A stretch of DNA of 64,000 bases from Phycisphaerae bacterium (GTDB lineage Bacteria > Planctomycetota > Phycisphaerae > Sedimentisphaerales > SM23-30): the NCBI GenBank assembly GCA_016342495.1, contig JAEIOG010000001.1:1-64000 (forward strand), given 5' to 3'. Under the pieces are notes generated by a model. The model was not told the origin of the DNA and ran no database searches. It saw only the letters and a list, made by a program, of their open reading frames with translations. A program made the position numbers and the translations under genes. Shown here piece by piece: positions 47,392 to 64,000 of the stretch. How positions within the stretch are numbered: position 1 is the stretch's first letter; each line of letters opens with the position of its first letter.

Positions 47392-48039
47392 TTAAACCTT
47401 ATCGAGGACCTCTACTATTTGTTTTGTAACATTTTCAATCGCAGCATTTCCATCAAGATCCGCAATATTACCTTTTTTGGTATAATAAGCAACCAAAGGC
47501 GATGTTTGTTCATGGTAAGTTGCGATTCGACTACGAACAGTTTCGGAAGTATCATCACTACGCTGATTTAGTTGGCCACAACCTTTATCGCATTGATTTT
47601 CGACCTTAGGTGGGCTGAATACCAGGTGATAAGAAGCTCCACATTTCAGGCAGCTCCGACGGCCAGTGACGCGTTCTTCCAATTTATTATCATCAACTTG
47701 CAAATTTAATGCAACATCGATTTTTTTGCCTGCCTTGTCCATGGCATTATCTAATGCTTCGGCCTGGCCAATAGTTCTTGGGAAGCCATCAAGGACAAAA
47801 CCTTTAGCATCGTCAGCGGCCTGAATTTCTTTCATCATCATTGCAACGATCAGGTTATCAGGAACAAGTTTACCGCTATCCATATAGCTCTGAGCTTCTT
47901 TGCCCAAGTCGGTGCCTTCTTTACGTTCACGACGAAGGATGTCACCACTGGACATATGCTTAAGAGCATACCGGTCACAAATAAAGTTACATTGAGTGCC
48001 TTTGCCTGCACCGGGAGGGCCTAAAAATACTACAATCAT
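47392..48039 (-). CDS. adk: Adenylate kinase with zinc-type lid
   Basis: A 215-residue enzyme interconverting ATP, ADP and AMP. The P-loop is FLGPPGAGKGTQCNFI; DGFPRTIGQAEAL and VTGRRSCLKCGASYHLVF follow. The lid has two cysteine pairs (CLKC and CDKGC), a structural zinc site as in Gram-positive enzymes. It overlaps secY by four bases. Confidence 0.97.
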   Translation of the reverse strand: MIVVFLGPPGAGKGTQCNFICDRYALKHMSSGDILRRERKEGTDLGKEAQSYMDSGKLVPDNLIVAMMMKEIQAADDAKGFVLDGFPRTIGQAEALDNAMDKAGKKIDVALNLQVDDNKLEERVTGRRSCLKCGASYHLVFSPPKVENQCDKGCGQLNQRSDDTSETVRSRIATYHEQTSPLVAYYTKKGNIADLDGNAAIENVTKQIVEVLDKV

Positions 48040-49373
48040 GATCGAGAACCTTTTATCTTTCCGCTATCCATAAAGCCGGAATAATTACGCATTATCAATT
48101 GAGTTTCGATCTTCTGTACCAGATCAAGAGAAACTGAGACAACGATGAGCAAACCAGTACCACCCAAGAAAGTAGCGACACCAAAAGGTATTCCCATCAG
48201 GGCCATCACAAGAGCTGGGATAACAGCGATCAAAGCGAGAGATCCAGCTCCGACATAAGTTATGCGTGTCATTACATTTTCGAGATATTCAGCGGTACGT
48301 TTTCCAGGACGAAGTCCAGGAATAAAGCTACCATAATCTCTTAAGTTATTAGCAACCTCTTTTGGCTGGAACTGTACAGTAGTCCAGAAGAAAGCAAAGA
48401 AGTAAATCAAAGCAATATATAAGAAGTTATAAACAAAACTGGTTGGCAAGAAAGCATCTCCAAGCCAAGAACATGAAGGCCATCGTTCAGCCATCATTTT
48501 GAATATAATAGTTGGGAACTGCATTAAAGTGACAGCAAAGATAATCGGGATAACGCCACCATGGTTCAGACGTAAAGGCAAATATTGCTTTTGTCCGCCA
48601 TAGACTCGACGTCCACGAGTAGTTTTTGCCTGCTGGACTGGAATACGACGTTGAGCCTGCGTAATAAAAATCGCACCAGCGATAACACCAATAAATGCAA
48701 TAATAAGGACAACAATAGTTAAAGGGTTAATATCTATGCGTTTTAATGAAATAACCGCATTAGGCATTCTGGAGACAATACCAGCCATAATAATAAGACT
48801 AATACCGTTACCGATGCCATATTCATCGATTTGTTCACCCAGCCACATTAAAAAGACAGTACCGGCTGTCATAGCGCAAACACCCATCATAAAGAATAGA
48901 ATTCTATTCTGCTCCAAGATTTCGCTATAGACAAAGCCAGATTTGACCATCCATCCGAGGATAAAAGCCCCCTGGACGATACAGAGCCCCACCGTGAGCC
49001 AGCGAGTATACTCCTGTATTTTCTTGCGGCCCATTGTACCTTCTTTAGAAAGTTTTTCAAGAGAAGGAATAACTGTGGTCAGCAATTGCAAAATAATCGA
49101 GGCAGAGATATAAGGCATTATACCAAGGCCAAACAATGAACTTTGCCGAAGATTACCACCGGTAAAAATCTGGATGTAATCCGCAGCACGTTCGGCGGCA
49201 GTTTTATCTTCATCCTCAGTTACCTGATCAGTAATAGCTTTCATCTGATTCTTATCTACACCAGGTAGAGGAATATAGAATCCAACCCTGTAAATGCAAA
49301 GCATCAACAGGGTAAAGATTATTTTTTTTCTCAATTCTGGTATTTTAAATATACTTACAAATGCCGAGATCAT
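48036..49373 (-). CDS. secY: Protein translocase subunit SecY
   Basis: A 445-residue ten-helix channel protein of the Sec translocon. Landmarks: RVGFYIPLPGVDKNQ, the plug-near GLGIMPYISASIILQLLTTV, and loops QAQRRIPVQQAKTTRGRRVY and FGGQKQ-like GGQKQYLPLRLNHGGVIPIIFA. I use the ATG ending at 49373 rather than the TTG two codons before. Follows rplO as usual. Confidence 0.96.
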   Translation of the reverse strand: MISAFVSIFKIPELRKKIIFTLLMLCIYRVGFYIPLPGVDKNQMKAITDQVTEDEDKTAAERAADYIQIFTGGNLRQSSLFGLGIMPYISASIILQLLTTVIPSLEKLSKEGTMGRKKIQEYTRWLTVGLCIVQGAFILGWMVKSGFVYSEILEQNRILFFMMGVCAMTAGTVFLMWLGEQIDEYGIGNGISLIIMAGIVSRMPNAVISLKRIDINPLTIVVLIIAFIGVIAGAIFITQAQRRIPVQQAKTTRGRRVYGGQKQYLPLRLNHGGVIPIIFAVTLMQFPTIIFKMMAERWPSCSWLGDAFLPTSFVYNFLYIALIYFFAFFWTTVQFQPKEVANNLRDYGSFIPGLRPGKRTAEYLENVMTRITYVGAGSLALIAVIPALVMALMGIPFGVATFLGGTGLLIVVSVSLDLVQKIETQLIMRNYSGFMDSGKIKGSRS

Positions 49374-49415
49374 TAGCAAACTCGCTCCCTGTAGGTTATT
49401 ATATACGCATCAAAG

Positions 49416-49859
49416 TTACAGTTGCTCGATAGTACCACCAGCACTGGTGATTTTTTGTAGAGCAGATTTGCTAAATTTATTAGCAACAACTGTAAGTTTA
49501 CGATTAAGTTCACCGTCGCCTAAAACTTTTAGTGGTAAATCAGTGCCGCGGACAAGTCCAATGTTAGACAAAACTTCTGCATCAACGCGAGTACCTTCAT
49601 CGAAACAATCCAATTGGGATACGTTAACGATAGCATAGCGAGTTGCAAAATTAACATTGTTAAAACCGCGTTTAGGTAAACGACGGAATAATGGCATCTG
49701 GCCACCTTCTGAGGTAATAGGAGGCATGCCACCGGCGCGAGATTTTTGGCCTTTATGACCTTTACCGGAAGTTTTGCCAAGTCCACTACCCTGACCTCTA
49801 CCAATACGACGGCGAGCCTTATGCTTACCAACCAGAGATGTTATCTCATGATTCATCAT
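49416..49859 (-). CDS. rplO: 50S ribosomal protein L15
   Basis: A 147-residue 23S-binding protein. The basic N-terminus is GKHKARRRIGRGQGSGLGKT then SGKGHKGQKSRAG; the globular C-domain includes PLFRRLPKRGFNNVNF and LTVVANKFSKSALQKITSAG. It follows rpsE directly: no rpmD (L30) gene lies in the 21-base gap. Confidence 0.96.
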   Translation of the reverse strand: MMNHEITSLVGKHKARRRIGRGQGSGLGKTSGKGHKGQKSRAGGMPPITSEGGQMPLFRRLPKRGFNNVNFATRYAIVNVSQLDCFDEGTRVDAEVLSNIGLVRGTDLPLKVLGDGELNRKLTVVANKFSKSALQKITSAGGTIEQL

Positions 49860-49880
49860 GGCTGTTCAGTTCCTTATCAT

Positions 49881-50393
49881 TTATGATAATTTTACTCCGC
49901 GAAGCTTTTCGATCTGCTCGCGGCTTTTTAACAATTTCAAGGCATTCATAGTTGCCTTTACAACGTTCTTCGGACTTGTACTGCCATAGATTTTGGTCAA
50001 TACATCTTGGATTCCAGCTAATTCAAGCACAGATCGTGCAGAGACACCAGCGATAACACCGGTACCAACACTAGCAGGAATCAAAGTAATTTTAGTGGCA
50101 CCAAAACGGCCCGATACCTGATGAGGAATCGTAGTACCTTTAAGGTTTACACTAACAAGACTTCTGCGAGCTTCTTTATTAGCTTTTTCCACCGCTTGAG
50201 GAACTTCATTGGCTTTACCGTAGCCATAGCCTACCTGTCCTTTGCGGTCGCCAACGACAACCAGACCTGCGAAGCTAAAGTTACGGCCACCCTTTACCAC
50301 TTTAGAACAGCGATAAATTTTGACCAACTGGTCCTCAACCGGACTCTCTTCACGTTCATTTCGTGCTGCAAACTGAGCCACGTTTTTCTCCAA
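49881..50393 (-). CDS. rpsE: 30S ribosomal protein S5
   Basis: A 170-residue protein near the mRNA entry and decoding site. The N-domain has VKIYRCSKVVKGGRNFSFAGL and VVVGDRKGQVGYGYGKANEV, the C-domain VLELAGIQDVLTKIYGSTSPKNVVKATMNAL. Typical length. Confidence 0.96.
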   Translation of the reverse strand: MEKNVAQFAARNEREESPVEDQLVKIYRCSKVVKGGRNFSFAGLVVVGDRKGQVGYGYGKANEVPQAVEKANKEARRSLVSVNLKGTTIPHQVSGRFGATKITLIPASVGTGVIAGVSARSVLELAGIQDVLTKIYGSTSPKNVVKATMNALKLLKSREQIEKLRGVKLS

Positions 50394-50421
50394 TTCTTAT
50401 ACTGTTAAAAACAGTGTAACA

Positions 50422-50778
50422 TTAAAATACCAAACCAGCTTCCCGGGCGGCTTCAGCTAAAGCTTTAACACGTCCATGATATCTGAAACCGCTACGATCA
50501 AACGAGACCTGACGGATACCTAGTTCAGTCGCCTTTTTGGCTAAAACTTGACCAACTTTGGTTGCCGCATCAGAGTTACCACCACTAGAGATTTTTTCAC
50601 CTAAAGTGCTGGCAGCAACTAAAGTGCAACCTGCTTCGTCATCGATCAACTGAGCCGATATATGTCTCAGAGAACGAAAGACTGTCAAACGAGGACGCTG
50701 AGCATCACCAGATACTTTTTTGCGTACACGTTTTTTACGACGAGTTTTCTGTACGTTTTTAAATTTATTCTTTTCCAT
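50422..50778 (-). CDS. rplR: 50S ribosomal protein L18
   Basis: A 118-residue 5S rRNA-binding protein. Basic N-terminus ([20 protein letters not shown]) then [17 protein letters not shown], and the C-terminal [24 protein letters not shown]. Order and size are normal. Confidence 0.96.
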
Positions 50779-50886
50779 TATTGCATCTCAATAAAAAGTT
50801 GACAGCATACATAGTGAACTGCGTTGATTTTTCTGCACTTGAAAAGATAAACCACCAAGAGCAGAACAACAAACTGGCCGGTTCTA

Positions 50887-51459
50887 TTAACCGCTACCGA
50901 AAGCTTTTCCGGATTTACGTCTGATTACTTCGCCGCCATAACGGATCCCCTTACCCAGATAAGGTTCTGGAGGGCGAACTTTTCGGCATTTAGCAGCCAA
51001 CTGTCCGACAGCTTGTTTATCAGCACCGGTAATTTTGAATTTGGCTGGAGTATCATTACCACGAGCATTAGGTGTTTCAATCTCAACGGAGACACCCTGT
51101 GGGATTTTCAATACTGCCGGTTTAGCAAAACCTACAGTGAGATAAATATCCTGGCCCTGCTGTTTGATACCATAGCCGGTTCCATACATTTCTAAAGCTT
51201 TACTAAAGCCTTTCGACACACCATCGATCATATTAGCAATCAAAGCACGAGTAGTGCCATGCAAAGCACGATTAAGCTTATGATCATCAGGTCGGGTTAC
51301 TGTAAACATTGAAGTTTCTGTATCATAATCAACATTAATGTTGTTATGGACATCAAATTCCAAAGTTCCGATAGAACCGCTGATAGTCACTTTCTGACCA
51401 TCTAGCTGTACTTTTACGCCCGAAGGCACTTTAACTGGTTTTTTTCCTATACGACTCAT
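50887..51459 (-). CDS. rplF: 50S ribosomal protein L6
   Basis: A 190-residue protein near the sarcin-ricin loop. MSRIGKKPVKVPSGVKVQLD at the start, duplicated L6 fold, and the C-terminal signature PPEPYLGKGIRYGGEVIRRKSGKA. Slightly longer than E. coli L6. Confidence 0.96.
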   Translation of the reverse strand: MSRIGKKPVKVPSGVKVQLDGQKVTISGSIGTLEFDVHNNINVDYDTETSMFTVTRPDDHKLNRALHGTTRALIANMIDGVSKGFSKALEMYGTGYGIKQQGQDIYLTVGFAKPAVLKIPQGVSVEIETPNARGNDTPAKFKITGADKQAVGQLAAKCRKVRPPEPYLGKGIRYGGEVIRRKSGKAFGSG

Positions 51460-51509
51460 AACACTATTTCAAAAACAGGTGAATCTTCATGGCAAACGGT
51501 TCTGCTAAT

Positions 51510-51911
51510 TTAGCATACCGTACATAACAGCTCACCGCCAACATTAAGCTGGCGACATTGCTGGTCGGAAATCACACCTTTGTTTGTACTAAGGATAGCA
51601 ATTCCCAAACCACCTAATACCTTAGGCAGTTCTGAAACATCACAGTAAACTCTACAAGAGGGTTTGCTACAACGTTTAATTTCATTAATCACTTTTTCGC
51701 CCAATGGGCCATACTTCAGTTCGATTCGTAGCAAGCCTTGCTTGTCGGTGGTTTCGATTCTATCGTATCCCTGGATATAGCCTTGTTCTTTAAGAACTTT
51801 AGCCAGACCTTCGCATACTCTAGAAGCCTTAACCAGGACTTCAGCATTTTCGATGCTTACTGCGTTACGAATCCGCGTGAGCATATCAGCTATAGGATCA
51901 CAGTGACTCAT
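51510..51911 (-). CDS. rpsH: 30S ribosomal protein S8
   Basis: A 133-residue central 16S-binding protein, known in other bacteria as the spc-operon repressor. DPIADMLTRIRNA near the N-terminus, and the C-terminal VLGGLGIAILSTNKGVISDQQC are diagnostic. Confidence 0.96.
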   Translation of the reverse strand: MSHCDPIADMLTRIRNAVSIENAEVLVKASRVCEGLAKVLKEQGYIQGYDRIETTDKQGLLRIELKYGPLGEKVINEIKRCSKPSCRVYCDVSELPKVLGGLGIAILSTNKGVISDQQCRQLNVGGELLCTVC

Positions 51912-51948
51912 AATTCGTTCTACTCCATACGGTCATAAACCGCTTTAA

Positions 51949-52134
51949 TTACCAACTGGCTTTCTTTACGCCAGGGATTTTTCCTTCATTGGCCAGATTA
52001 CGAAAACATATACGGCAGATCTTAAACTTGCGATATACCGCACGAGGTCTTCCACACAATTCGCATCGTGTATATCCTCTTACTTTGAATTTTGGTGTTC
52101 CGGCAGCTTTGAATTTTATCGCTTTTGTTGCCAT
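51949..52134 (-). CDS. rpsN: 30S ribosomal protein S14, zinc type (type Z)
   Basis: A 61-residue protein of the small-subunit head. [20 protein letters not shown] starts the family-typical form; the eight upstream codons are dropped. The zinc finger is [22 protein letters not shown], so the short, zinc-containing form is used. Confidence 0.96.
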
Positions 52135-52202
52135 GCGTTCCTCTTCGCCATTGCCCAATAAATGGGTTACAATTATTATTAGCCGGCTCGTGCCGGATAC
52201 AT

Positions 52203-52760
52203 TTAGTCTTCTATTTTATCAGTTGCTCTAAAAGGCATACCAAACTGTTTAAGCATAAAACGTGCTTCATCATCAGTTTTCGCAGAAGTTACGATATTAA
52301 TATTCATACCCTGAACTTTAGTGATCTTATCTGGATCAATTTCAGGAAATACCATCTGTTCGTTTAATCCCATAGAGAAATTACCTCTACTATCAAAGCC
52401 CTTTGGTGTAAGACCACGAAAGTCACGTACACGAGGAATAGCCAAGGCAATAAGTCTATCTAAAAATTCAAACATCTGGGAGCGACGCAAAGTGACTTTG
52501 CAGCCAATATCCATACCTTCGCGAAGTTTGAAGTTTGAAACACTCTTACGAGCTTTACAAATTACAGGCTTTTGACCGGCAATAGTAGTCATATCTCTGA
52601 CGGCACCTTCGACAAGTTTCTTGTCTTTAGAACCTTCACCGACGCCCATAGAGATAACAATCTTCTGGATTTTAGGAAGTTCCATGCAGTTTTTGTAATT
52701 AAACTCTTTCTGCATTTCATTTTTAATCTTTGATTTATATAATGCTTCAAGCCGCGTCAT
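52203..52760 (-). CDS. rplE: 50S ribosomal protein L5
   Basis: A 185-residue 5S rRNA and P-site contact protein. [40 protein letters not shown] and [19 protein letters not shown] are diagnostic. Length normal. Confidence 0.97.
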
Positions 52761-52813
52761 TTCCGCATGCCTCTATTTCTGTGTTTGATGCCTATTGGCA
52801 CTATTAAAAATCC

Positions 52814-53044
52814 TTATTCGGATACAGGTTTCAAATTACTCATATTAACTGGACGTTCGATTTGCAATCTACCACCCTGAGGGTTTTTTTTGGAAGGACG
52901 AACATGTTTCCAGCACATATTAACACCTTTAACCAAAGCTTTACCAGTATCAGGTAAAACTTTAAGAACCTTGGCGGTTGTGCCTTTATCATCACCAGCA
53001 ATAACTTTTACGGTATTACCTTTTTTAATTTTAGCAGCCATCAC
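52814..53044 (-). CDS. rplX: 50S ribosomal protein L24
   Basis: A 76-residue assembly-initiator protein with a KOW motif ([20 protein letters not shown]). It is short: E. coli L24 has about 104 residues, and this one ends soon after [20 protein letters not shown]. It overlaps rplN by four bases. Confidence 0.93.
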
Positions 53045-53427
53045 ACCACCTCCGATGCTAATGAGACGATCTTCATAAATTGTTTTTCACGAAGCTCTCT
53101 AGCTACCGCACCAAAGATACGGGTACCTATAGGGTTGTTATTATCATCAATCAAAACAGCCGCATTACTGTCAAAACGGACATAACTGCCATCAGGACGT
53201 CTAATTGGGTATTTAGTGCGAATAATAACCGCACGATGAACCTTTTTGTCGTCAAGACTAAGAGTAGGCAAAGATTTTTTAATTGCAACTCTTATTATGT
53301 CGCCAACAGATGCTGTGCGACGAGTTTTCTTGCCGCGAGCTGTGCTGCCGCCAAGAACTCTAATACAAAGAGCTGTCTTTGCACCTGAGTTATCTGCGAT
53401 TTCTACTATCGTTTCCTGCTGAATCAT
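53041..53427 (-). CDS. rplN: 50S ribosomal protein L14
   Basis: A 128-residue intersubunit-bridge protein. [36 protein letters not shown], and the C-terminal [20 protein letters not shown] are diagnostic. Confidence 0.97.
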
Positions 53428-53450
53428 CGAACTATAATCCTATATTCAGA

Positions 53451-53711
53451 TTAAGCGTTTGTATCAAGGACTTGTACCAATCGCCATGTTTTGGTTTTAC
53501 TCATAGGGCGACATTTACAAATCTCAACGGTATTGCCAACTATTGCTGTATTATTTTCATCATGAACATGAGCATTAGTTCGGCGTTTGAGCATCTTGCC
53601 ATACTTAGGATGACTAGTCTGATACTCTAAAGTCACTTTAATGGTTTTGTTGCCAGAAACACCGGCGACAACACCTTTATATACTTTTGGTTTTTTTCGT
53701 TCTGTGGTCAT
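53451..53711 (-). CDS. rpsQ: 30S ribosomal protein S17
   Basis: An 86-residue OB-fold 16S-binding protein. KVYKGVVAGVSGNKTIKVTL, and HDENNTAIVGNTVEICKCRPMSKTK show the family; it ends WRLVQVLDTNA. Confidence 0.96.
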   Translation of the reverse strand: MTTERKKPKVYKGVVAGVSGNKTIKVTLEYQTSHPKYGKMLKRRTNAHVHDENNTAIVGNTVEICKCRPMSKTKTWRLVQVLDTNA

Positions 53712-53741
53712 TTGCTTTCCACTACCTTTATGAAAGTATAA

Positions 53742-53957
53742 TTATTTAGCGGCCTGGGCAGCTAATTCTTTCTCGCGAATTACGGTCAATATACGAGCGA
53801 TCTCAGATTTTACTTTAGTAAGCTGAGTTGGATCTTCCAGCTTTTCTGTAACAGACTGAGTTCTCATCTCAAACTGTCGTGCCCGCAACGATTCAACTTC
53901 ACTAAGAAGTTCATCGGTACTTAAACCACGATATTCTTCTGCTTTTTTATTTTTCAT
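53742..53957 (-). CDS. rpmC: 50S ribosomal protein L29
   Basis: A 71-residue helical protein at the exit tunnel. EYRGLSTDELLSEVESLRAR, QFEMRTQSVTEKLEDPTQLT and KSEIARILTVIREKEL match the family. Confidence 0.95.
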   Translation of the reverse strand: MKNKKAEEYRGLSTDELLSEVESLRARQFEMRTQSVTEKLEDPTQLTKVKSEIARILTVIREKELAAQAAK

Positions 53958-53975
53958 AACTTTAAGTCTTTACTA

Positions 53976-54395
53976 TTATATTGCATGACGTCTTTTAACA
54001 AATCGACATCTTATTGGCATCTTATGGCAAACACGTAACATAGCTACGCGAGCTACATCTTCAGGAACGCCACCAATTTCATATAAGATTGTACCTGGTT
54101 TAACTTTGGCAACCCACGAACTTGGTTCGCCTTTACCCTTACCCATACGAACTTCAAGGGGTTTTGAAGTTAAAGAGCGATGCGGGAATATTCTAATATA
54201 GACTTTACCTTCGCGACGCAAAAAGTGAGTCGCAGCAACACGCCCAGCTTCGATCTGTCGGTTAGTAATATTTGAATGTTCCAAAGCTTGCAGTCCAAAT
54301 TCGCCAAATGCAACATAGTTACCTTTTGATGCATTACCACGAAGTCGGCCCTTCTGGTACTTACGATATTTAACTCTTTTTGGCATCAAAGCCAT
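53976..54395 (-). CDS. rplP: 50S ribosomal protein L16
   Basis: A 139-residue protein near the A-site t[44 protein letters not shown], and [20 protein letters not shown] are diagnostic. Confidence 0.97.
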
Positions 54396-54455
54396 GATTA
54401 TATTCCTTTATCTACCGGTTTGTCAGTTTTAGACTTTTGGCAATCACCGATCAGC

Positions 54456-55157
54456 TTATTTGTCTCTCGATTTTGGGCCTCTGCCCCCTCTGCGTTGCTG
54501 AGGTACAGGAGTAATTTCTTCACCAAACTTACCAAGATATATCCAGACCTTAATTCCAATTGTACCATAAGTACAATGAGCAAGACCTAAACCATAATCT
54601 ACATTTGCCTGCAAAGTCTGCAGTGGAATACTACCTAAAATCTGAGTTTCGCTACGTGCAAGTTCTGCCCCGCCTAAACGGCCTGAGCACATGATTTTAA
54701 TACCTTTTGCACCAGCGGCCATAGCTGTTTCACAAGACTGTTTCATCGCTCTGCGGAAAGCAGCCCGACGTTTCAGTTGTTCGCCAATACCTTCAGCAAC
54801 CAATTGGGCATTAAGTTCTGGTGCTTTGATCTCAACAACATTAACTGTTACTTTACGATCAATTAAATTTTCGAGAGCTTCACGAATCTTATCGATTTCG
54901 GCACCCTTAGGACCAATAACTAAACCTGGACGAGCGGTATGAAGGGAAACGCGAACTTCATCACGAGTTCTTTCTACTTCAACGCGAGCCAAAGCAGCAT
55001 AAGGCTGTTGTCGATTCAAACGCTGATCCAGAAATTTTCGAATTTTCTGATCTTCAACCAGGAAAGTCCCATAAGCTGCTTTAGGAGCAAACCATCGACT
55101 TTGCCATCCTCTAGTGATGCCGGTACGAAAACCAATTGGTGATACTTTCTGACCCAT
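54456..55157 (-). CDS. rpsC: 30S ribosomal protein S3
   Basis: A 233-residue protein at the mRNA entry. MGQKVSPIGFRTGITRGWQS begins it; the KH domain is near GLVIGPKGAEIDKIREALEN, and the C-domain has IKIMCSGRLGGAELARSE and YGTIGIKVWIYLG. A short Arg/Gly tail follows. Confidence 0.97.
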   Translation of the reverse strand: MGQKVSPIGFRTGITRGWQSRWFAPKAAYGTFLVEDQKIRKFLDQRLNRQQPYAALARVEVERTRDEVRVSLHTARPGLVIGPKGAEIDKIREALENLIDRKVTVNVVEIKAPELNAQLVAEGIGEQLKRRAAFRRAMKQSCETAMAAGAKGIKIMCSGRLGGAELARSETQILGSIPLQTLQANVDYGLGLAHCTYGTIGIKVWIYLGKFGEEITPVPQQRRGGRGPKSRDK

Positions 55158-55194
55158 AAATATTTCCTCTGGTCAATGCCTCAAGGCATGACTA

Positions 55195-55788
55195 TTATTT
55201 CTCTACATCTACGCTTACAAATATATGACTAGCTAATCTCGTAAAAGAAACAGCACGTCCCCGATCTTTTGGTCTCCAGCGACGGGTGCCACGGCGGATA
55301 CCACCTTCATCAACGCGAATTTCTGAAATATAAAGCTGATCGGTATCAACTTCGTTTTCAGCGGCGCTTCCGATAGCACTTTTCAAGACCTGGCTAACAA
55401 AAACCGCAGCACGTTTATTGGCAAACTTAAGCACATCCAAGGCATCCTGAACATCTCTGTCGCGGACCAAGTCAGCTACAAGTCTTATCTTACGCGGTGC
55501 CATTGGACAGAACTTGTGACTGGCGTGCCAGCATTCCAAATCCTGAGAAGTCACATTCAAAGCAGTTGCTAATGCTTCTACACATTCACGGCTTGATCTT
55601 TTTTTGAACAAACCTTTGCTTTTCAATAAACCATTTTCCCAGTTTTTGATATCTGAACGCATCTTTTTCAGTTCAACCTGGGCTTTGTCTTTATCCATAC
55701 CCGAGGTAGGAGCTAATGCTGCAGCTAATTCTGCTACAGTCATGTTTGCTTCCTGACGACACTTTTTCAGTTTATTACTACTTAACAT
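55195..55788 (-). CDS. rplV: 50S ribosomal protein L22 with N-terminal helix-turn-helix-like extension
   Basis: A 197-residue protein, about 85 residues longer than normal L22. The ribosomal part starts near residue 87 (HASHKFCPMAPRKIRLVADLV) and continues with the usual tunnel-lining loop and RRGTRRWRPKDRGRAVSFTR, so it is complete. The added residues 1-85 look like an Xre/Cro-type helix-turn-helix domain: LKKCRQEANMTVAELAAAL, then a charged loop, IKNWENGL, and ALATALNVTSQDLECW. No alternative start would give a normal-length L22; the only nearby Met, in MAPRK, would cut into the fold. The extension is therefore translated with L22. Confidence 0.9.
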   Translation of the reverse strand: MLSSNKLKKCRQEANMTVAELAAALAPTSGMDKDKAQVELKKMRSDIKNWENGLLKSKGLFKKRSSRECVEALATALNVTSQDLECWHASHKFCPMAPRKIRLVADLVRDRDVQDALDVLKFANKRAAVFVSQVLKSAIGSAAENEVDTDQLYISEIRVDEGGIRRGTRRWRPKDRGRAVSFTRLASHIFVSVDVEK

Positions 55789-55853
55789 CTTTATATCCTG
55801 ATATTAGCTATTAGTTCTTCAAAGATATACGGCTAGGCCGCTTCTCAGGCTAA

Positions 55854-56126
55854 CTACCTTTTCTTTTTGTCGGCTGCATGACCTCTGAAACTGCGGGTCG
55901 GTGAAAATTCACCCAGTTTATGCCCCACCATATCTTCTGTCACATACACTTTGTGAAACATGCGGCCATTATGTACCATAAATGTATAACCTACAAATTC
56001 TGGTACGATTGTACAACGCCGAGCCCAAGTTTTAATTGGTTCTTTATTGCCTGATTCAACCTGCTTCATTACTTTTTTGTAGACCTTTTCGTCAACGAAA
56101 GGTCCTTTTTTTAGCGAGCGACTCAT
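55854..56126 (-). CDS. rpsS: 30S ribosomal protein S19
   Basis: A 90-residue head protein. [40 protein letters not shown] and [14 protein letters not shown] are diagnostic. Confidence 0.97.
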
Positions 56127-56145
56127 ATACTCGTATTCCTCATAA

Positions 56146-56997
56146 TTACAGTGTCAACTGTCCGTAATGTTTACTCTTGCGTCTGCGAATAATTCTCTTA
56201 TTCGAAGCTTTCTTTTTAGCACGGGTCTTACCACCCTTTGCCAACACACCAGTCGGCGAACAAGGATGTCGACCACCATTGCTGCGACTTTCACCACCAC
56301 CCATAGGATGGGCAACAGGGTTCTGAGCTTTACCACGAACGTGTGGCTTACGGCCCATATGTCGTTTTCGACCAGCTTTACCGATACGAACATGTTGATG
56401 ATCAACATTACCGATTTGGCCAATAGTTGCGCGACATGCGACATCAATCATCCGCATTTCGCCACTGGGTAAAATCAAATGAGCCCATTTACCATCTCTG
56501 GCAACCAGACGAGCAACTCCGCCTGCTGAACGGACTATTTTGCCGCCCTGACCTACATTCAATTCAATATTATGGATTTCCATACCTACTGGAATTGAGC
56601 CAATCGGCATACAATTACCTACTTTAGGTTCAACCTTATGGCCACTTTCAAGTGTTTCGCCAACTTTGATACCTACAGGAGCAAGAATGTAGCTTTTTTC
56701 ACCATCTTCATACTGCAATAAAGCAATATGACAAGTGCGGTTTGGATCATATTCAATACCTAAAACTGTAGCAACGACTCCATCTTTGAGACGCTTGAAA
56801 TCAATTTTACGATAAAGACGTCTGGCACCACCGCCACGAAAACGCACAGTAACTTTTCCGCTGTGATTACGCCCACCATGTTTTTTAATACGTGTGGTCA
56901 GGCTTTTTTCGGGCTTGGTCTTAGTAATTTCGGCATAATCATTAACCGATGAATTACGACGGCCAGCACTGGTTGGTTTATAAACGCGAATGCCCAT
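56146..56997 (-). CDS. rplB: 50S ribosomal protein L2
   Basis: A 283-residue protein near the peptidyl transferase centre. [34 protein letters not shown] and the C-terminal [20 protein letters not shown] with the conserved His are present. Length is near 275, as usual. Confidence 0.97.
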
Positions 56998-57039
56998 TGT
57001 CTTACTTTCCTAATAACGTTTCGCTAATATTTATTACAT

Positions 57040-57318
57040 TTAGAACAGGTCAATTACGTGGCCATCCAGAAGGACAACAACTGCTTTTTTCCAATTGCTT
57101 GCATGTCCCTGAACATAACCACGACGTTTTGGTTTGCCCTTGCGGTTCATCGTACGGACTTCTTTAACTTTAACTGAATAAATCTGCTCTACAGCATGTT
57201 TAATTTCAATTTTGTTTGCCTTACGATTAACTTCAAAAGCATAAGCATTCAGCGTCGTCGCTTGATGCGTGCCCTGTTCGGTAATCAACGGTTTTACTAT
57301 TACTTGATACTTATCCAC
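57040..57318 (-). CDS. rplW: 50S ribosomal protein L23
   Basis: A 92-residue exit-tunnel protein that docks the signal recognition particle and trigger factor. KPLITEQGTHQATTLNAYAF, and IKHAVEQIYSVKVKEVRTMN are typical. Confidence 0.95.
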   Translation of the reverse strand: MDKYQVIVKPLITEQGTHQATTLNAYAFEVNRKANKIEIKHAVEQIYSVKVKEVRTMNRKGKPKRRGYVQGHASNWKKAVVVLLDGHVIDLF

Positions 57319-57338
57319 GGTTCACCTCTTGGGGATAA

Positions 57339-57977
57339 TTAATTTTCAACAGTCTCAGCTGCGGGATTGACCAAAGTTTCCAAAGCCGCTTTGGTCATAA
57401 GCAGTGTACGTTTGTTCAACACATCGCCTGCATTGAGCTGATCGACTTCCAGACATTTAATCCTGGGGATGTTACGCATGGATTTATATACATTAACATC
57501 ATATTCTTCGATTGCGACCAGGCAGCTACGTTCAATTTTCAGATTATTCAAAACCATAGTAAATTCTTTGGTTTTAGGTGCCGCAAAATCAAATCTGTCA
57601 ATAACAATAACATCATTGCTGAGTAATTTTGCCAATACTGCTGAGTTACGAGCCAAACGTCGTTGTTTTTTAGGCATACGTTGTGAAAAATCACGGTTGA
57701 CTTTAGCAAATGCAACGCCACCACCTTTACGGACAACAGTTCGGCTAGCACCAACACGTGCCCGGCCAGTACCCTTTTGGCGATAAAGCTTACGGGTTGA
57801 GCCCTGTACCATGCCCCGACTTTTAGTCGCTGCGGTACCCTGACGTTGGTTGGCATGGTACATGACGATTGCCTGTTTCAGCAATGCTGGTCTTACTCTG
57901 CCGCCCAAGATTTCTTCGTTGACCGAAACGGTATCAACTTCTTTACCTTCGCGGTTATATACTTTTACGTCTATCAT
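57339..57977 (-). CDS. rplD: 50S ribosomal protein L4
   Basis: A 212-residue tunnel-wall protein that in some bacteria also represses the S10 operon. I use the ATG ending at 57977 (MIDVKVYNREGKEV), matching the family start; four extra codons precede it at another ATG without a better ribosome site. GTAATKSRGMVQGSTRKLYRQ and GTGRARVGASR mark the extended loop. Confidence 0.95.
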   Translation of the reverse strand: MIDVKVYNREGKEVDTVSVNEEILGGRVRPALLKQAIVMYHANQRQGTAATKSRGMVQGSTRKLYRQKGTGRARVGASRTVVRKGGGVAFAKVNRDFSQRMPKKQRRLARNSAVLAKLLSNDVIVIDRFDFAAPKTKEFTMVLNNLKIERSCLVAIEEYDVNVYKSMRNIPRIKCLEVDQLNAGDVLNKRTLLMTKAALETLVNPAAETVEN

Positions 57978-58020
57978 AACTGCCGCCATTCTAAGCGTTA
58001 TTATTAATTCTGATTAAAGC

Positions 58021-58665
58021 TTAGCTTTTGGTTTTAGCCTGCTTTAACATTACATATCCATTGTTGCAGCCAGCGATCGGGCCTTTAACTAACAACAGAT
58101 TATTTTCAACATCAACTTCAACAACTTTGTGATTCTTGCTGGTGCACTGCTCGTCACCCATGTGACCACCCATTCTTTTACCCTTTCGGATACCTCGGCT
58201 TTTACCAGCAGAACCGGAGTTCGAGGCAATACTGCCTGGATGGCGATGCTTACGTTCGCAACCATGTGAAGCATCCATACCTTTGAAGTTATGGCGTTTC
58301 ATTACTCCAGCAAAACCTTTTCCTTTACTGATACCGGTAACATCAACATATTTGATGTCTTCGAAAACACCGACATTCAATTCATCGCCAGCTGCGTATT
58401 CTGTGGCATTAACCCGGAATTCGCGAACAAAACGTTTCGGAACAGTATTTGCTTTTGCTGCATGCCCAATTGCTGGTTTTTTAAGACGTGAATGTTTAAC
58501 AACATCGTCAAGACCAAGCTGGACAGCACTATAGCCATCAACTTCTTCAGTACGAACCTGTGTTACAACACAAGGTCCAGCCTGAATTACTGTTACTGGA
58601 ATGATGACACCATTTTCGTCATAGACTCGTGTCATCCCTACTTTTTTACCCAAAAGCATCGTCAT
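58021..58665 (-). CDS. rplC: 50S ribosomal protein L3
   Basis: A 214-residue peptidyl-transferase-region protein. MLLGKKVGMTRVYDENGVII near the start, GFAGVMKRHNFKGMDASHG, and RIGKRMGGHMGDEQ-like KGKRMGGHMGDEQ are diagnostic. AGGAAG is 7 bases upstream. A terminator-like hairpin separates it from rpsJ. Confidence 0.96.
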   Translation of the reverse strand: MTMLLGKKVGMTRVYDENGVIIPVTVIQAGPCVVTQVRTEEVDGYSAVQLGLDDVVKHSRLKKPAIGHAAKANTVPKRFVREFRVNATEYAAGDELNVGVFEDIKYVDVTGISKGKGFAGVMKRHNFKGMDASHGCERKHRHPGSIASNSGSAGKSRGIRKGKRMGGHMGDEQCTSKNHKVVEVDVENNLLLVKGPIAGCNNGYVMLKQAKTKS

Positions 58666-58693
58666 ACGATTACTTCCTATCTGAGCTATCTGA

Positions 58694-58730
58694 TAAAAAA
58701 ACGTGCTTTCATATTTTTGTCAGCACGCTT
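58694..58730 (-). terminator. Attenuator-like hairpin between rpsJ and rplC
   Basis: On the minus strand GCGTGCT pairs with AGCACGT (one G-T pair), loop of 14 bases, followed directly by a run of seven T. It lies within the S10 operon, 29 bases before the rplC start, so it would act as an internal attenuator or partial terminator. Confidence 0.6.
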
Positions 58731-58743
58731 CAAAACTACATAA

Positions 58744-59052
58744 TTATACTTTAATCTTTACAAATACGCCAGCTGGTACAACCAGACGATTTAACGCTTC
58801 AATTGTACGCGGATTAGCGTCCCTAATATCAATCAGGCGTTTGTGAGTGCGCATTTCAAACTGTTCACGAGACTTTTTATTCACGTGTGGACTGCGAAGC
58901 ACAGTATAACGTTCGATACGCGTTGGCAGTGGGATCGGTCCACTGACTCTGGCGTTCGTGCGGGTAGCCTGCTCCACGATCTCTTTTGCTGATGCATCAA
59001 GAGAACCATGGTCGTAAGCTTCCATCCGAATTCTAATTCTTTCGGCCTCCAC
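58744..59052 (-). CDS. rpsJ: 30S ribosomal protein S10
   Basis: A 102-residue protein, also antitermination factor NusE. The start is GTG ending at 59052, with AGGAG 8 bases upstream. [20 protein letters not shown], then [38 protein letters not shown]-type motifs and [16 protein letters not shown] identify it. Confidence 0.96.
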
Positions 59053-59460
59053 TGAGACTACTCCTGTTCTAAATTAAGATTGAATCTTAAACTTGCCTTG
59101 TTTTGGCTCAACACTTTTTGCCACAAGGCTTTAACAAACATATATTGCCACCGGGACAATTATTCAGAATCGCTAGGATAGCGTCTTGAGCCCAATAGTC
59201 AACTGAAAAAACTGAAATTAATCAATTATTTTTCATTCCCAACTATTTAGTCAGTTTTCATAGCAATAAAGTCTATTATTCCTGACATATCGAGGACACA
59301 GAACATCGTTAGAACCATAATAAATGCAAAAACATTACAAAAATATAGGACTAAGGATTTAGAGGTGAGTGTAAGTATTCAACTATTCACTAACCGCAAT
59401 GCACATGAGCATCGCTCGCTTCAGTCGAGTCGCAAATTATACAGGTTACTGGTGTGCTTG
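59053..59460. other. Leader region of the S10 operon
   Basis: About 408 bases between fusA and rpsJ. It contains a promoter at 59175-59202 and a repeated word pair GCCTTG/CAAGGC near 59094-59130 that can form a stem in the leader. No gene seen. Confidence 0.5.
59175..59202 (-). promoter_or_regulatory. Probable promoter of the S10 operon
   Basis: On the minus strand TTGACT and TATCCT are 16 bases apart. Transcription would start about 115 bases before the rpsJ GTG, leaving a structured leader. Confidence 0.55.
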
Positions 59461-61530
59461 TCAATAGGAAGTTTCTAAAACTTTTTTAGAAATTTGCGAA
59501 GGCACTATTGCATAGCTGTCAGCTTCCATAGAGTAGCCTGCACGGCCCTGGGTAGCACTGCGTAATTCCGAGGCATAACCAAACATTTCAGCTAAAGGAA
59601 CCTTAGCGTGAATGTAGCGAACTGGGCCACGCTGATGGGTATCGGTGATTTCAGCCCGTTTACGCACTAAATCACCTTGAATAACACCATAATACTGTTC
59701 AGGTGTAACAACTTCCAATTTCATAATGGGCTCGAGCAAAACTGGGCCCGCCTCATCTAGGGCTTGATTAAAAGCCATACTGGCAGCCTGCTGATATGCC
59801 ATTTCGGATGAATCAACTTGATGACTTGAGCCATCAATAATGCAAATTTTAATTCCTTCCATAGGATAACCGGCCAACATACCACCGCCACAGGCACTTT
59901 TGGCCCCTTCAATTGCTGCAGGTATAAATTCTTTCGGAATCACACCGCCAGAGGTTTTATCTTCAATAATAATGTTTTCTTTTTCATTTGGTGGATATGG
60001 CTCAATTGTTAAAACCACGTGACCATAATGCCCACGCCCACCAGTCTGTTTCTCAAATTTAGCATCGCCACGTGCCAAAAGCGTAATGGTTTCCTTATAG
60101 GCAACTCGAGGTCGCCCTACCCGCACATCAATTTTCATATCACGAATAATTTTGTGCTGCAGTATTTCCAGATGCAATTCCCCCATGCCACTAATAATTG
60201 TTTGACCGGTATCTTCCTGGAATGTTGCTCTAAAGGAAGGATCTTCACGTTTAAGCGTCTCTAACGCCTCAGCCAGTTTAACTCTATCAGCATTAGTCCT
60301 GGGCTCAATAGCAGCACTGATGACAGGTTCCGGGAATTCTATCGTTCCTAATACAATTGGATTTTTCTGCAAACAGAGTGTATCACCAGTAAGTGTGTTT
60401 TTTAAGCCAACCACCGCTACAATATCACCGGCTTTAGCTTCGTCACGCATAATCCTTGAGTTAGCATGCATTTGGCATATCTTAGTAATATTTTCTTTTT
60501 TGTCACGATTGGTATTAAGTACCCGCATACCATTTTTTAATGTACCGGAATATATTCTCAGAAAAGTCAAATCGCCATGCTGATCAGATGCGATTTTAAA
60601 GGCTAATGCAGCAAATGGGCCATTTGGATCACACTTACACATTATAATTTTATCGGTATTTTTTGGATCAACACCTTCCACATCAGGTCTATCCAGTGGG
60701 CTAGGCAGTAAATCAACGATTGCATCTAATAATCTTTGTGAACCTATGCTTTTTAAAGCCGAACCACAAAAAGTCGGATGGATTTTTCCTTGAATTGTTG
60801 CTTTACGTAATGCGGCAATAATCTGTTTGGGATCAAGGTTTTCTTCTGCAAAGTATTTTTCCATCAAATCTTCATCATAGTCAGCAGCTGTTTCGACCAT
60901 ATACTGGCGAGCTTCTTCCACTTCATTTGCATATTCTTCGGGGATATCATGTTCAGCAAATTTAGTGCCAACTTTATCTTCTACAAAAATAACCATTTTG
61001 AGATAAAGCAGATCAATAAAACCTTTGAAATCATCCTGATTGCCAACCGGGATGGTCATTGGCACAGGCACTGCATGAAGTTTTTCACGCAAGCTATTAA
61101 TCGACATTTCAAAATCAGCACCAAGTTTATCCATTTTATTAATAAAACATAAACATGGGATATTATATTTCTGGGCCTGATGCCAAACTGTTTCAGATTG
61201 AGCCTGAACCCCTTCTGAAGCATCAAAGACGGCTACAGCCCCATCAAGTACCCGCAACGACCGTTCAACCTCAACGGTAAAATCAACATGCCCAGGGGTA
61301 TCAATGAGGTTAATGGTATGATCTTTCCAGGGACAAGTCGTAGCCGCTGAGGTAATTGTAATGCCGCGTTCCTGCTCTTCCTGAAGATAATCCATCACTG
61401 CGGTGCCATTATGAACTTCACCTATTTTATAAGTCTTGCCGGTAAAGTACAATACTCTCTCAGTTACAGTCGTTTTGCCTGCATCAATATGAGCCATTAT
61501 GCCAATGTTGCGTATTTTATTAAGTTCCAT
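59461..61530 (-). CDS. fusA: Translation elongation factor G
   Basis: A 689-residue translocase. G1 is [21 protein letters not shown], the switch II region is [22 protein letters not shown], and G4 is FINKMDKLG. Domains II-V follow; domain IV ends [12 protein letters not shown]-like [18 protein letters not shown]. Length fits EF-G. A terminator separates it from rpsG, and the promoter of rpsJ follows it. Confidence 0.97.
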
Positions 61531-61586
61531 CTATGTTCAACCTGTCTACTAAGCTGTAATACTTATAGCTAATGTTCCGATTAAAA

Positions 61587-61621
61587 AAAGCCACAACCAG
61601 GGACTACCCAGCTGTGGCTTT
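61587..61621 (-). terminator. Terminator between rpsG and fusA
   Basis: A 9-bp stem AAAGCCACA/TGTGGCTTT with an inner GGG/CCC pairing is followed on minus by TTTTAATC. It lies 19 bases after the rpsG stop, so fusA may depend on readthrough or its own promoter. Confidence 0.75.
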
Positions 61622-61639
61622 GAAATTCGCTTAAAATGA

Positions 61640-62113
61640 TTACCAGGCGAAATGTGCAAATGCTTTATTAGCTTCTGCCATACGATGTACGTTTTCGCGT
61701 GTAGTCATTGCGGTACCTTCTTTATTGAAGGCAGCTGTGAGTTCAGCTGCTAAACGTTCTGCCATCGGCCTGCCGGATTTATTACGGCAGGCAGCTAAAA
61801 TCCAACGAAACGCCAAAGCTTGCTGACGTTTAGGATTAACTGGCATTGGAACCTGATAAGTCGAACCACCAACACGTTTGCTACGTACTTCGATCAAAGG
61901 TTTAACATTATTAATGGCTGTTTCAAATGCTTCCAGCTGAGAAACATCTTTTACTCTTTTGCTTACGATATCCATTGCATCATAAACAACTTTTTCAGCT
62001 ACTGATTTTTTTCCATCATACATTAAGCAATTGATAAACTTAGATACCAGCTTACTGCCATGGCGAGCGTCTGGTCTTAATTGCTTAACTGATGCGGTAA
62101 AACGTTTTGACAT
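61640..62113 (-). CDS. rpsG: 30S ribosomal protein S7
   Basis: A 157-residue head-nucleating protein. [21 protein letters not shown], and [22 protein letters not shown] are diagnostic; GGAG lies 9 bases upstream of the ATG. Confidence 0.97.
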
Positions 62114-62174
62114 TCTTTCATACTCCGAGTTACTGTTTTCTACAGAATGTTTCGTGGGTCCTTAACTTTTGTTA

Positions 62175-62205
62175 GACGCAAGTCAAAGCCCACACCCTTT
62201 GGGTA
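62175..62205 (-). repeat. ATACCC hairpin, partial copy
   Basis: On minus ATACCCAAAGGGTGTGGGCT matches the first hairpin and following bases of 16517-16552 (ATACCCAAAGGGTATGGGTT). It lies in the rpsL-rpsG spacer. Confidence 0.45.
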
Positions 62206-62327
62206 TTCTATATACTCAACGCGTCTGTGCTATAATGGACAGACACCGCTCTAGATATAAACCCTATGTAATACCACACATTGGTACTACCAAACAAGCT
62301 TATTCACTTATTCAAGGTACACATTTA

Positions 62328-62699
62328 TTATTTAGGACGTTTAGCACCGTATTTACTACGAGCCTGTTTGCGATTAGCGACACCTAAGGTATCTAATGCA
62401 CCACGAACGATGTGGTAACGAACACCAGGTAAGTCACGTACGCGGCCGCCGCGAACTAGAACAATACTATGTTCCTGAAGGTTATGGTCGACACCAGGAA
62501 TGTAAGCGGTAACTTCCTTACCATTGCTGAGACGAACCCTAGCAACCTTACGCAAAGCAGAGTTAGGTTTTTTAGGAGTCTGAGTTTTAACCTGTAGACA
62601 TACGCCCCGGCGTTGTGGGCAATTATCCAAGTCAGGTGACTTACTTTTGTTCTTAGGCGACTTACGACCATTTCTCACTAATTGATTAATAGTTGGCAT
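62328..62699 (-). CDS. rpsL: 30S ribosomal protein S12
   Basis: A 123-residue decoding-site protein. The start is the ATG ending at 62699 ([13 protein letters not shown]) with GGAG 6 bases upstream; 18 more upstream codons are dropped. [20 protein letters not shown] carries the conserved Lys of the streptomycin site, unaltered. Confidence 0.97.
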
Positions 62700-62878
62700 T
62701 TTTGCTCCGTATTTTTTCAGAATTTTCTTACAATTCTTCTTGTTTATCAACATTCTACCGAATCATCACATAATATACTTATCTCTAAAAATGACATAAG
62801 TCCTAATGATTGCGGCATTTACCCTAATAATACCAAAAGTAAGATATAGGATAAGTCGGGTAATATACAGTTTTTTTC

Positions 62879-64000
62879 TTAATCCGTCAAGCCTAATGCT
62901 TCTTTTACTGCTTTTTCTGCCAAAGCTTCTTCACTTTGGTATTCTTCGATTTCAGCAATTTCAAGCTCAATAGGAACAGGAGGTTTAGCATTATGCTGGA
63001 TTTTTATACCCAGATAAGGTTTAAAGGCAGTACCAGCGGGAATCAGATGGCCAAGAATAACATTTTCTTTCAGGCCTAACAATTGATCGACCTTGCTGGA
63101 AATACTAGCTTCGGTGAGCACACGAGTGGTTTCCTGGAAACTAGCCGCCGAAACAAAACTTTCAGAAGAAAGTGATGCTTTGGTAATACCAAGCAACATA
63201 GTTGCACCAGTAGCCGGACGGCATTTTTTGCCAACAGCTTCATCACCACCAATAGCAACAATCGGCTCATTAACCTTTGCCAGTTCTTCCTTAGTGATAA
63301 TCTGACCTTCTTTAAGGTCGCTATCGCCAGGATCGCTGATCTTCAGGCTTGTTCCCACTGTATCATTAGCACGACGGAAAACAAATTTATCCAGAACATC
63401 ACCTGGCAATAAATCGGTATCACCTGGATTTTCGCATTTAACTTTGTGTAGCATCTGATTAATAACAATTTCAATATGTTTATCATTGATATTCTGTTTC
63501 TGAGCACGATAAACACTCTGGATTTCACGCAACAGATAATCTTGCAAAGCTTCTTCACCACGAATTCTAAGAATATCATGGGGTACCAGCGGTCCATCAG
63601 TTAAAGGTTCACCAGCAATCACATAATCGCCTGAATGCACCAAAAGGTGCTTATCATGCGGAACATGATGTTCGATTTCCAAACCGGTATCACTTCGAAT
63701 AATGATGGTCATCTTACCACGGCGTTTATCGCCGCGTAATTCGACCTGACCAGAGATTTCCGCCATCGCTGCCGGTTCTTTAGGCTTACGTGCTTCAAAA
63801 ACTTCAGTTACACGCGGCAAACCACCGGTAATATCCTGCGTACCAGAAATCGCTCGAGGTTGCATAGCTAACATACCACCAGGCTTGATTTCATCGCCTT
63901 CTTCAACCTGAATACGAGCCTTGGCAGGCAGGTAATGGAAGTCAAGAATATTGCCATCGGGATCTTCGATAACGATGCGCGGATGCTTTTCACCTTTATG
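62879..64000 (-). CDS. rpoC: RNA polymerase beta' subunit, C-terminal part
   Basis: Partial gene: the C-terminal 373 codons, open to the right edge (the frame continues as HKGEKHPRIVIEDPDGNILDF upstream of the first internal Met). QPRAISGTQDITGGLPRVTEVFEARKPKEPAAMAEI, GVNDKH-like QNINDKHIEIVINQMLHKV, and the downstream clamp segment SAASFQETTRVLTEASISSK with ENVILGHLIPAGTAF are diagnostic. It ends 180 bases before rpsL, in the classical order rpoC-rpsL-rpsG-fusA. Confidence 0.97.
   Translation of the reverse strand, partial: HKGEKHPRIVIEDPDGNILDFHYLPAKARIQVEEGDEIKPGGMLAMQPRAISGTQDITGGLPRVTEVFEARKPKEPAAMAEISGQVELRGDKRRGKMTIIIRSDTGLEIEHHVPHDKHLLVHSGDYVIAGEPLTDGPLVPHDILRIRGEEALQDYLLREIQSVYRAQKQNINDKHIEIVINQMLHKVKCENPGDTDLLPGDVLDKFVFRRANDTVGTSLKISDPGDSDLKEGQIITKEELAKVNEPIVAIGGDEAVGKKCRPATGATMLLGITKASLSSESFVSAASFQETTRVLTEASISSKVDQLLGLKENVILGHLIPAGTAFKPYLGIKIQHNAKPPVPIELEIAEIEEYQSEEALAEKAVKEALGLTD

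Follow-up and report, generated by a model that had tools for sequence, protein, structure and literature searches.

A predicted Cro/CI-like domain fused in frame to ribosomal protein uL22 in two clades of Phycisphaerae

The only L22 protein encoded in a 5.4 Mb Sedimentisphaerales genome, as judged by a whole-genome search, is a 197-residue fusion in which a domain with a predicted Cro/CI (Xre)-like helix-turn-helix (HTH) fold precedes the uL22 core. The fusion is conserved across the order and is under purifying selection, and a homologous domain occupies the same position in a second, non-sister clade of the class. Lineage-specific extensions of ribosomal proteins are a known kind of variation. 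This one stands out because the addition is folded and of repressor type, and because the protein that carries it is a universal component of the tunnel. All ribosomes contain uL22, which borders the nascent-chain tunnel; a regulator-type domain fixed on it throughout an order amounts to a change in the core translation machine and offers a natural, testable example of domain acquisition by a universal ribosomal protein. No earlier description of an HTH-L22 fusion was found in the open-access literature searched.

The fused gene, its locus and its distribution

The fused gene, rplV, lies on the minus strand at positions 55195-55788 of the window (the whole 64,000-nucleotide stretch that was analyzed), as the preliminary description had placed it, with its ATG start at 55788 and its stop codon at 55195-55197. 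An AGGA resembling a Shine-Dalgarno sequence is positioned for the extended start codon (55796-55799, minus strand). The gene sits in an otherwise ordinary S10 operon, between rpsS (uS19; 55854-56126, minus strand) upstream and rpsC (uS3; 54456-55157, minus strand) downstream. Elsewhere in the window, rpsN (51949-52158, minus strand) encodes a short zinc-type uS14 (CELC...CRIC).

The C-terminal portion was assigned as bacterial uL22 by several measures. Residues 89-193 match Pfam PF00237 (E 4e-26), and the protein scores 91.6 bits against NCBIfam TIGR01044, above the cut-off of 73.65. The rpsS/rpsC-flanked position in the S10 operon and the sole genomic copy are likewise those of uL22; no second, plain rplV was found in this genome or in the relatives searched. 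Combining the Pfam and TIGR01044 matches with the alignment and the AF2 model, the uL22 core spans residues 88-197 (55198-55527, minus strand), beginning without a linker at the ancestral start. The added domain, delimited by Pfam HTH matches, profile search and AF2, comprises residues 1-87 (55528-55788, minus strand).

The frame had been described as lacking an alternative normal start, and this was borne out. Between eight codons before and four codons after the ancestral L22 start, the window's rplV contains no in-frame ATG or GTG, and such a codon occurs in this interval in just 48 of 147 extended loci. Among the extended loci, the extended start codon is conserved, a conserved internal start is absent, and an in-frame stop precedes the extended start by a median of five codons.

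A search of other planctomycete rplV genes revealed the extension throughout the Sedimentisphaerales and in two further families, f10 and f25. Every assembled L22 examined in the Sedimentisphaerales has the domain: L22 was found in 56 of the 59 genomes searched, all 56 with the extension, and a genome scan provided approximately 75 further extended loci. Loss of the extension in G041 and G055, both well-assembled genomes, was ruled out, as both also lack uS3 and the S10 operon is therefore unassembled there. One contig with a Sedimentisphaerales S10 operon (L123, CAMDDF010000002.1) is titled Candidatus Kuenenia stuttgartiensis, which looks like an erroneous title for this MAG. Of 248 class genomes, 61 have the domain (44 from the order itself, 15 from f10, and 2 from f25), and L22 is plain in every other family sampled. 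Within f10 the extension is present in 58 of 58 L22s found, and in f25 in both genomes. A spacer in the place of the domain, which the preliminary description had raised as an alternative, was not seen in these homologues; the same position is filled by the domain. In a search of 294 genomes across the phylum, the matches listed outside the class start at or after residue 52, indicating plain L22. Extended loci can also be recognized by spacing. Between the S19 stop and the L22 core lie 220-460 nt in nearly all of them, versus 17-183 nt in plain loci (the core match is partial in a few f10 loci), while the gene order L2-S19-L22-S3-L16 is unchanged between the two.

Over 36 pairs, a few of which repeat the same genomes, the extension had a median dN/dS of 0.19, compared with 0.067 for the core. 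Thus, the extension evolves about threefold faster than the L22 core, and a value of about 0.19 indicates that it is translated and constrained by purifying selection. With the frame conserved over the whole order, these data confirm that the fusion is not due to chance: the approximately 85 residues noted at first are a true in-frame addition to L22. A mis-set start or pseudo-extension is ruled out by the order-wide conservation, the upstream in-frame stop, and dN/dS. The patchy distribution across the class could be taken to mean that an accidental fusion left behind a domain of no function, or that the annotation is at fault. We regard this as barely credible, given that all assembled L22s of two clades have the domain and that it combines purifying selection with a conserved start and a fold predicted at high confidence.

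Predicted fold of the domain and its junction with uL22

The window's copy of the domain is divergent relative to other members of the family. Residues 1-87 score 21.0 bits against HTH_19 and 18.7 bits against HTH_3, compared with Pfam gathering scores of 30.2 and 23, respectively. Across 27 family members, HTH_31 is matched by 15 (best E 2.6e-8) and HTH_3 by 14 (best E 8.6e-7), with single members also matching HTH_19. A Sedimentisphaerales-only profile, built from 18 other domains with the window's own left out, finds the window domain at E 1.7e-14.

The AF2 model of the full-length window protein has a pLDDT of 90.4 and a pTM of 0.82, consistent with two domains predicted as one unit. Helices in the added domain span residues 4-13, 18-25, 33-52, 54-57, 67-77 and 81-84. 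Blocks within it mostly have pLDDT values of 92-97, with 62-79 in the loop around residues 51-70. The canonical 76-residue domain (L062), modelled alone, reached a pLDDT of 90.6. Foldseek searches of the PDB with this domain gave matches with a probability of ~1.00, TMq of about 0.6-0.76, and E-values above 0.03. Those listed (DdrO, C.AhdI, P22 c2, C.Csp231I, 434 Cro, SinR, HppE and MPnS) are all either Cro/CI-like proteins or enzymes that contain a Cro-like domain, and with the AF2 models they point to a lambda-repressor-like helical fold. Three lines (AF2, Foldseek, and the Pfam matches of relatives), none overwhelming alone, thus agree in supporting a Cro/CI-like fold for the N-terminal domain, as had been proposed from the window alone.

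The predicted recognition-like helix, alpha3, corresponds to residues 33-52 (55633-55692, minus strand) and is lengthened at its N-terminus in the window's subclade. Four sampled members of family f1, to which the window belongs (the window, L003, L004 and L006), share, compared with most of the fused proteins, a 6-7-residue insertion before a conserved NW, extending alpha3 to 20 residues in the window model. In the window copy, the loop after the NW segment carries another insertion, and a P-x-P motif is lost.

The junction can be read directly from aligned sequences. Plain L22 of other class members begins with M-A-W/Y-x-x-x-H, for example MAWRAAHRFARIS (L059) and MAYTSTHRFARIA (L053). The last residue of the domain is W in the Sedimentisphaerales, with x-(S/A)-(S/T/C)-(Y/H)-(R/K)-(Y/F)-(A/C)-P after it, and F in f10/f25. 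W87 of the window protein corresponds to the W of the plain 'MAW...', such that the junction aromatic matches the former third residue of L22 and a linker is absent.

These features bear on whether the domain persists in the mature protein. Eukaryotes have processed ribosomal protein fusions, such as FUBI-eS30, and the domain might similarly be translated and then cleaved, acting as a folding or assembly chaperone in the manner of ubiquitin-eS30/eL40, or as a free HTH protein. We consider this improbable. No linker or protease-like site was seen, and the junction W/F is almost invariant inside each clade. Furthermore, AF2 runs the last HTH helix straight into the first L22 beta-strand (residues 87-94), with high confidence across residues 81-94.

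Evolutionary history of the domain

Profiles built from either clade alone recovered the extensions of the other. The f10-only profile finds every Sedimentisphaerales extension in assembled loci at E 4e-19 to 6e-6 and the divergent window copy at 1e-4, the next best match in the 248 genomes having an E-value of 8e-4. Conversely, the Sedimentisphaerales-only profile finds all f10 and f25 extensions at ~2e-11 or better, and nothing besides these below 1.6e-4. This reciprocal recovery indicates one homologous domain family. With the wide gap to all remaining matches, it rules out that the two clades recruited unrelated HTHs independently. No close free-standing copy of the domain was found in the 248 class genomes.

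The fused taxa themselves form two groups in a tree of L2, S19, the L22 core, S3 and L16. The Sedimentisphaerales adjoin the plain families f12 and f16, and f10 and f25 are nested among the plain families f20, f22 and f24. Monophyly of the fused taxa was rejected on L2, S19, S3 and L16 (delta logL 313; AU p 1.8e-9). For the L22 core, f10 groups with the plain f20/f22 cores, which disfavours whole-gene transfer of rplV between the clades, but the test against forced monophyly is not significant on its ~103 columns (AU p 0.086). In the tree of the domain, f10 and f25 attach with low support at the base of the Sedimentisphaerales, beside the window's family.

Three histories could account for these relationships: an ancestral fusion followed by about seven losses, transfer of the 5' part of the gene between stem lineages, or two separate fusions of the same domain. 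A homologous domain in two non-sister clades thus raises the question of whether it was lost or transferred, in a gene whose inheritance is regarded as vertical.

Possible roles and comparison with known systems

On balance, we think that the domain is probably a permanent folded module on the ribosome surface near the tunnel exit, serving as an rRNA clamp or docking site, and not a DNA-reading transcription factor. The Cro/CI-type HTH fold, joined directly to the N-terminal residues of uL22, would form one two-domain protein, and this would be built into every 50S subunit, as expected for the only L22 of the cell. Judging from the known geometry of uL22, the domain would lie on the solvent side of the 50S subunit near the tunnel exit, where it may act as a fixed module contacting rRNA backbone or docking a protein. 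Its putative partner is rRNA or one of the factors that act at the tunnel exit, for example peptide deformylase (PDF) or methionine aminopeptidase (MAP). A position on the ribosome surface is plausible. uL22 belongs to the tunnel-exit ring (PMC5071890), and in E. coli it is a docking site for both PDF and MAP (PMC9099147). That the fold can grip rRNA is shown by EDF1/Mbf1, whose Cro/C1 HTH is held by rRNA helices h16 and h33 (PMC7486125).

We looked for an rRNA counterpart in 23S sequences obtained by 5S-anchored retrieval. No indel tracks the fusion across 9 extended and 8 plain genomes, which rules out a 23S insertion or deletion as the binding partner and leaves no obvious rRNA partner. As the domain evolves faster than the core to the degree given above, any partner contact would be loose or limited to few residues. 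Rough alignment placed apparent insertions of ~290 nt near E. coli position 1861-1881 in the 23S of L247 (G015) and of ~310 nt near position 541-561 in that of L245 (G205, f25).

Extensions of ribosomal proteins can aid ribosome assembly. The domain, being moderately conserved and positively charged, might therefore chaperone nascent or unassembled L22 or bind early 23S intermediates, with a minor role in the mature ribosome. The chances of this appear slim to us, since the predicted fold is compact and globular, unlike the usual disordered extension, and no rRNA indel tracks the domain.

Many Cro/CI domains bind DNA, which counts against the reading as a ribosome-borne module. If the domain read DNA as a regulator, conserved polar residues would be expected in the first turn of its recognition helix. 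In the register that we assume for alpha3 relative to 434 repressor, positions 35-38 are A, variable, A/S/T, and A, and the polar base-contacting residues found at the start of alpha3 in Cro/CI regulators are missing. Polar or basic residues conserved in both clades are R27, [RK]40 and N41, and the net charge of the domain is about +4. What the evidence supports is an HTH fold and not a role in DNA binding.

The region upstream of the S10 operon was also examined. A conserved RNA element is present in the S10 leader of the Sedimentisphaerales (window 59368-59431, minus strand), just 3' of a TTGACA-N17-TATAAT promoter. It consists of an outer stem (CAGCC/GGCTG type) and a GCGAGC-hairpin-GCG, and is also found in L254-L264, L269, L270 and L288-L290. 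Its two helices covary, with 8 of 12 pairs changing on both sides and a covariation score reached in 0 of 500 shuffles. The model finds three Sedimentisphaerales genomes outside its training set (E 7e-9 to 2e-14), and gives no credible score in f10, f25 or plain genomes. No Rfam match was obtained at E<=1 in window 48000-64000, and we propose the leader as a candidate new RNA element. Though real, it is absent from f10 and f25 and so does not track the fusion, which eliminates it as the partner of the domain. It lies in a long fusA-rpsJ gap (window 59053-59460, minus strand) that recurs in the Sedimentisphaerales, at 320-530 nt where both genes were found, with an apparent second promoter (TTGAC-N17) closer to rpsJ.

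The preliminary description had suggested that the domain could serve autoregulation of the operon: free HTH-L22 would bind DNA or the S10 leader RNA and, with L22 in excess, repress the operon that encodes it. Ribosomal protein operons are frequently autoregulated, the Xre fold is predicted by AF2 and Foldseek, and a covarying leader directly follows the promoter in the Sedimentisphaerales. Nevertheless, this proposal did not hold up well, and we judge it unlikely. Ala or variable residues occupy the base-reading positions, part of the window's family has a lengthened alpha3, no operator-like palindrome is common to the regions upstream of rpsJ, and f10 and f25 have the domain without the leader element.

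A bolder form of the surface-module reading, which we offer tentatively as a doubtful possibility, is a repressor-fold receptor at the tunnel exit. Here the HTH would decide which factor (deformylase, methionine aminopeptidase, SRP, or a regulator) engages the nascent chain, or couple free L22 to gene expression, and the module would have been gained by, or transferred between, two Phycisphaerae clades on vertically inherited L22 cores. The fusion bears on how tunnel-exit factor docking may be re-wired and on whether repressor folds can become ribosome parts, as with EDF1/MBF1 in eukaryotes.

Compared with bacterial uL22 (TIGR01044/PF00237), the fusion shares the core (residues 88-197), the gene order, and the single copy, with a folded HTH of ~73-87 residues replacing the initiator Met-Ala of plain L22. 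With Cro/CI (Xre) HTHs (Pfam HTH_3, HTH_19, HTH_31) the domain shares the lambda-repressor-like helical fold, an LA motif in alpha2, an alpha3 ending in a W-x-x-G turn, and D-x-x-x-LA-x-AL in alpha4. It differs in its longer alpha2-alpha3 segment, Ala or variable base-contact positions and invariant NW, as well as in its fusion to a ribosomal protein and the lack of stand-alone relatives among those searched. HppE and MPnS, among the top Foldseek matches, similarly contain a Cro-like domain inside a non-regulatory protein, although these are metabolic enzymes. Chloroplast uL22c also has ~89 added residues (PMC5071890), but its extensions are mostly in extended conformation, whereas a compact HTH is predicted here. 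EDF1/MBF1 of eukaryotes and archaea, stated not to occur in bacteria, likewise uses a Cro/C1-type HTH on the ribosome, where it grips rRNA (PMC7486125). EDF1/MBF1 is a separate protein recruited to the small subunit, and an MBF1 or Zn-ribbon domain forms its N-terminal part; in the fusion, the HTH is itself N-terminal, with the large-subunit protein L22 directly after it.
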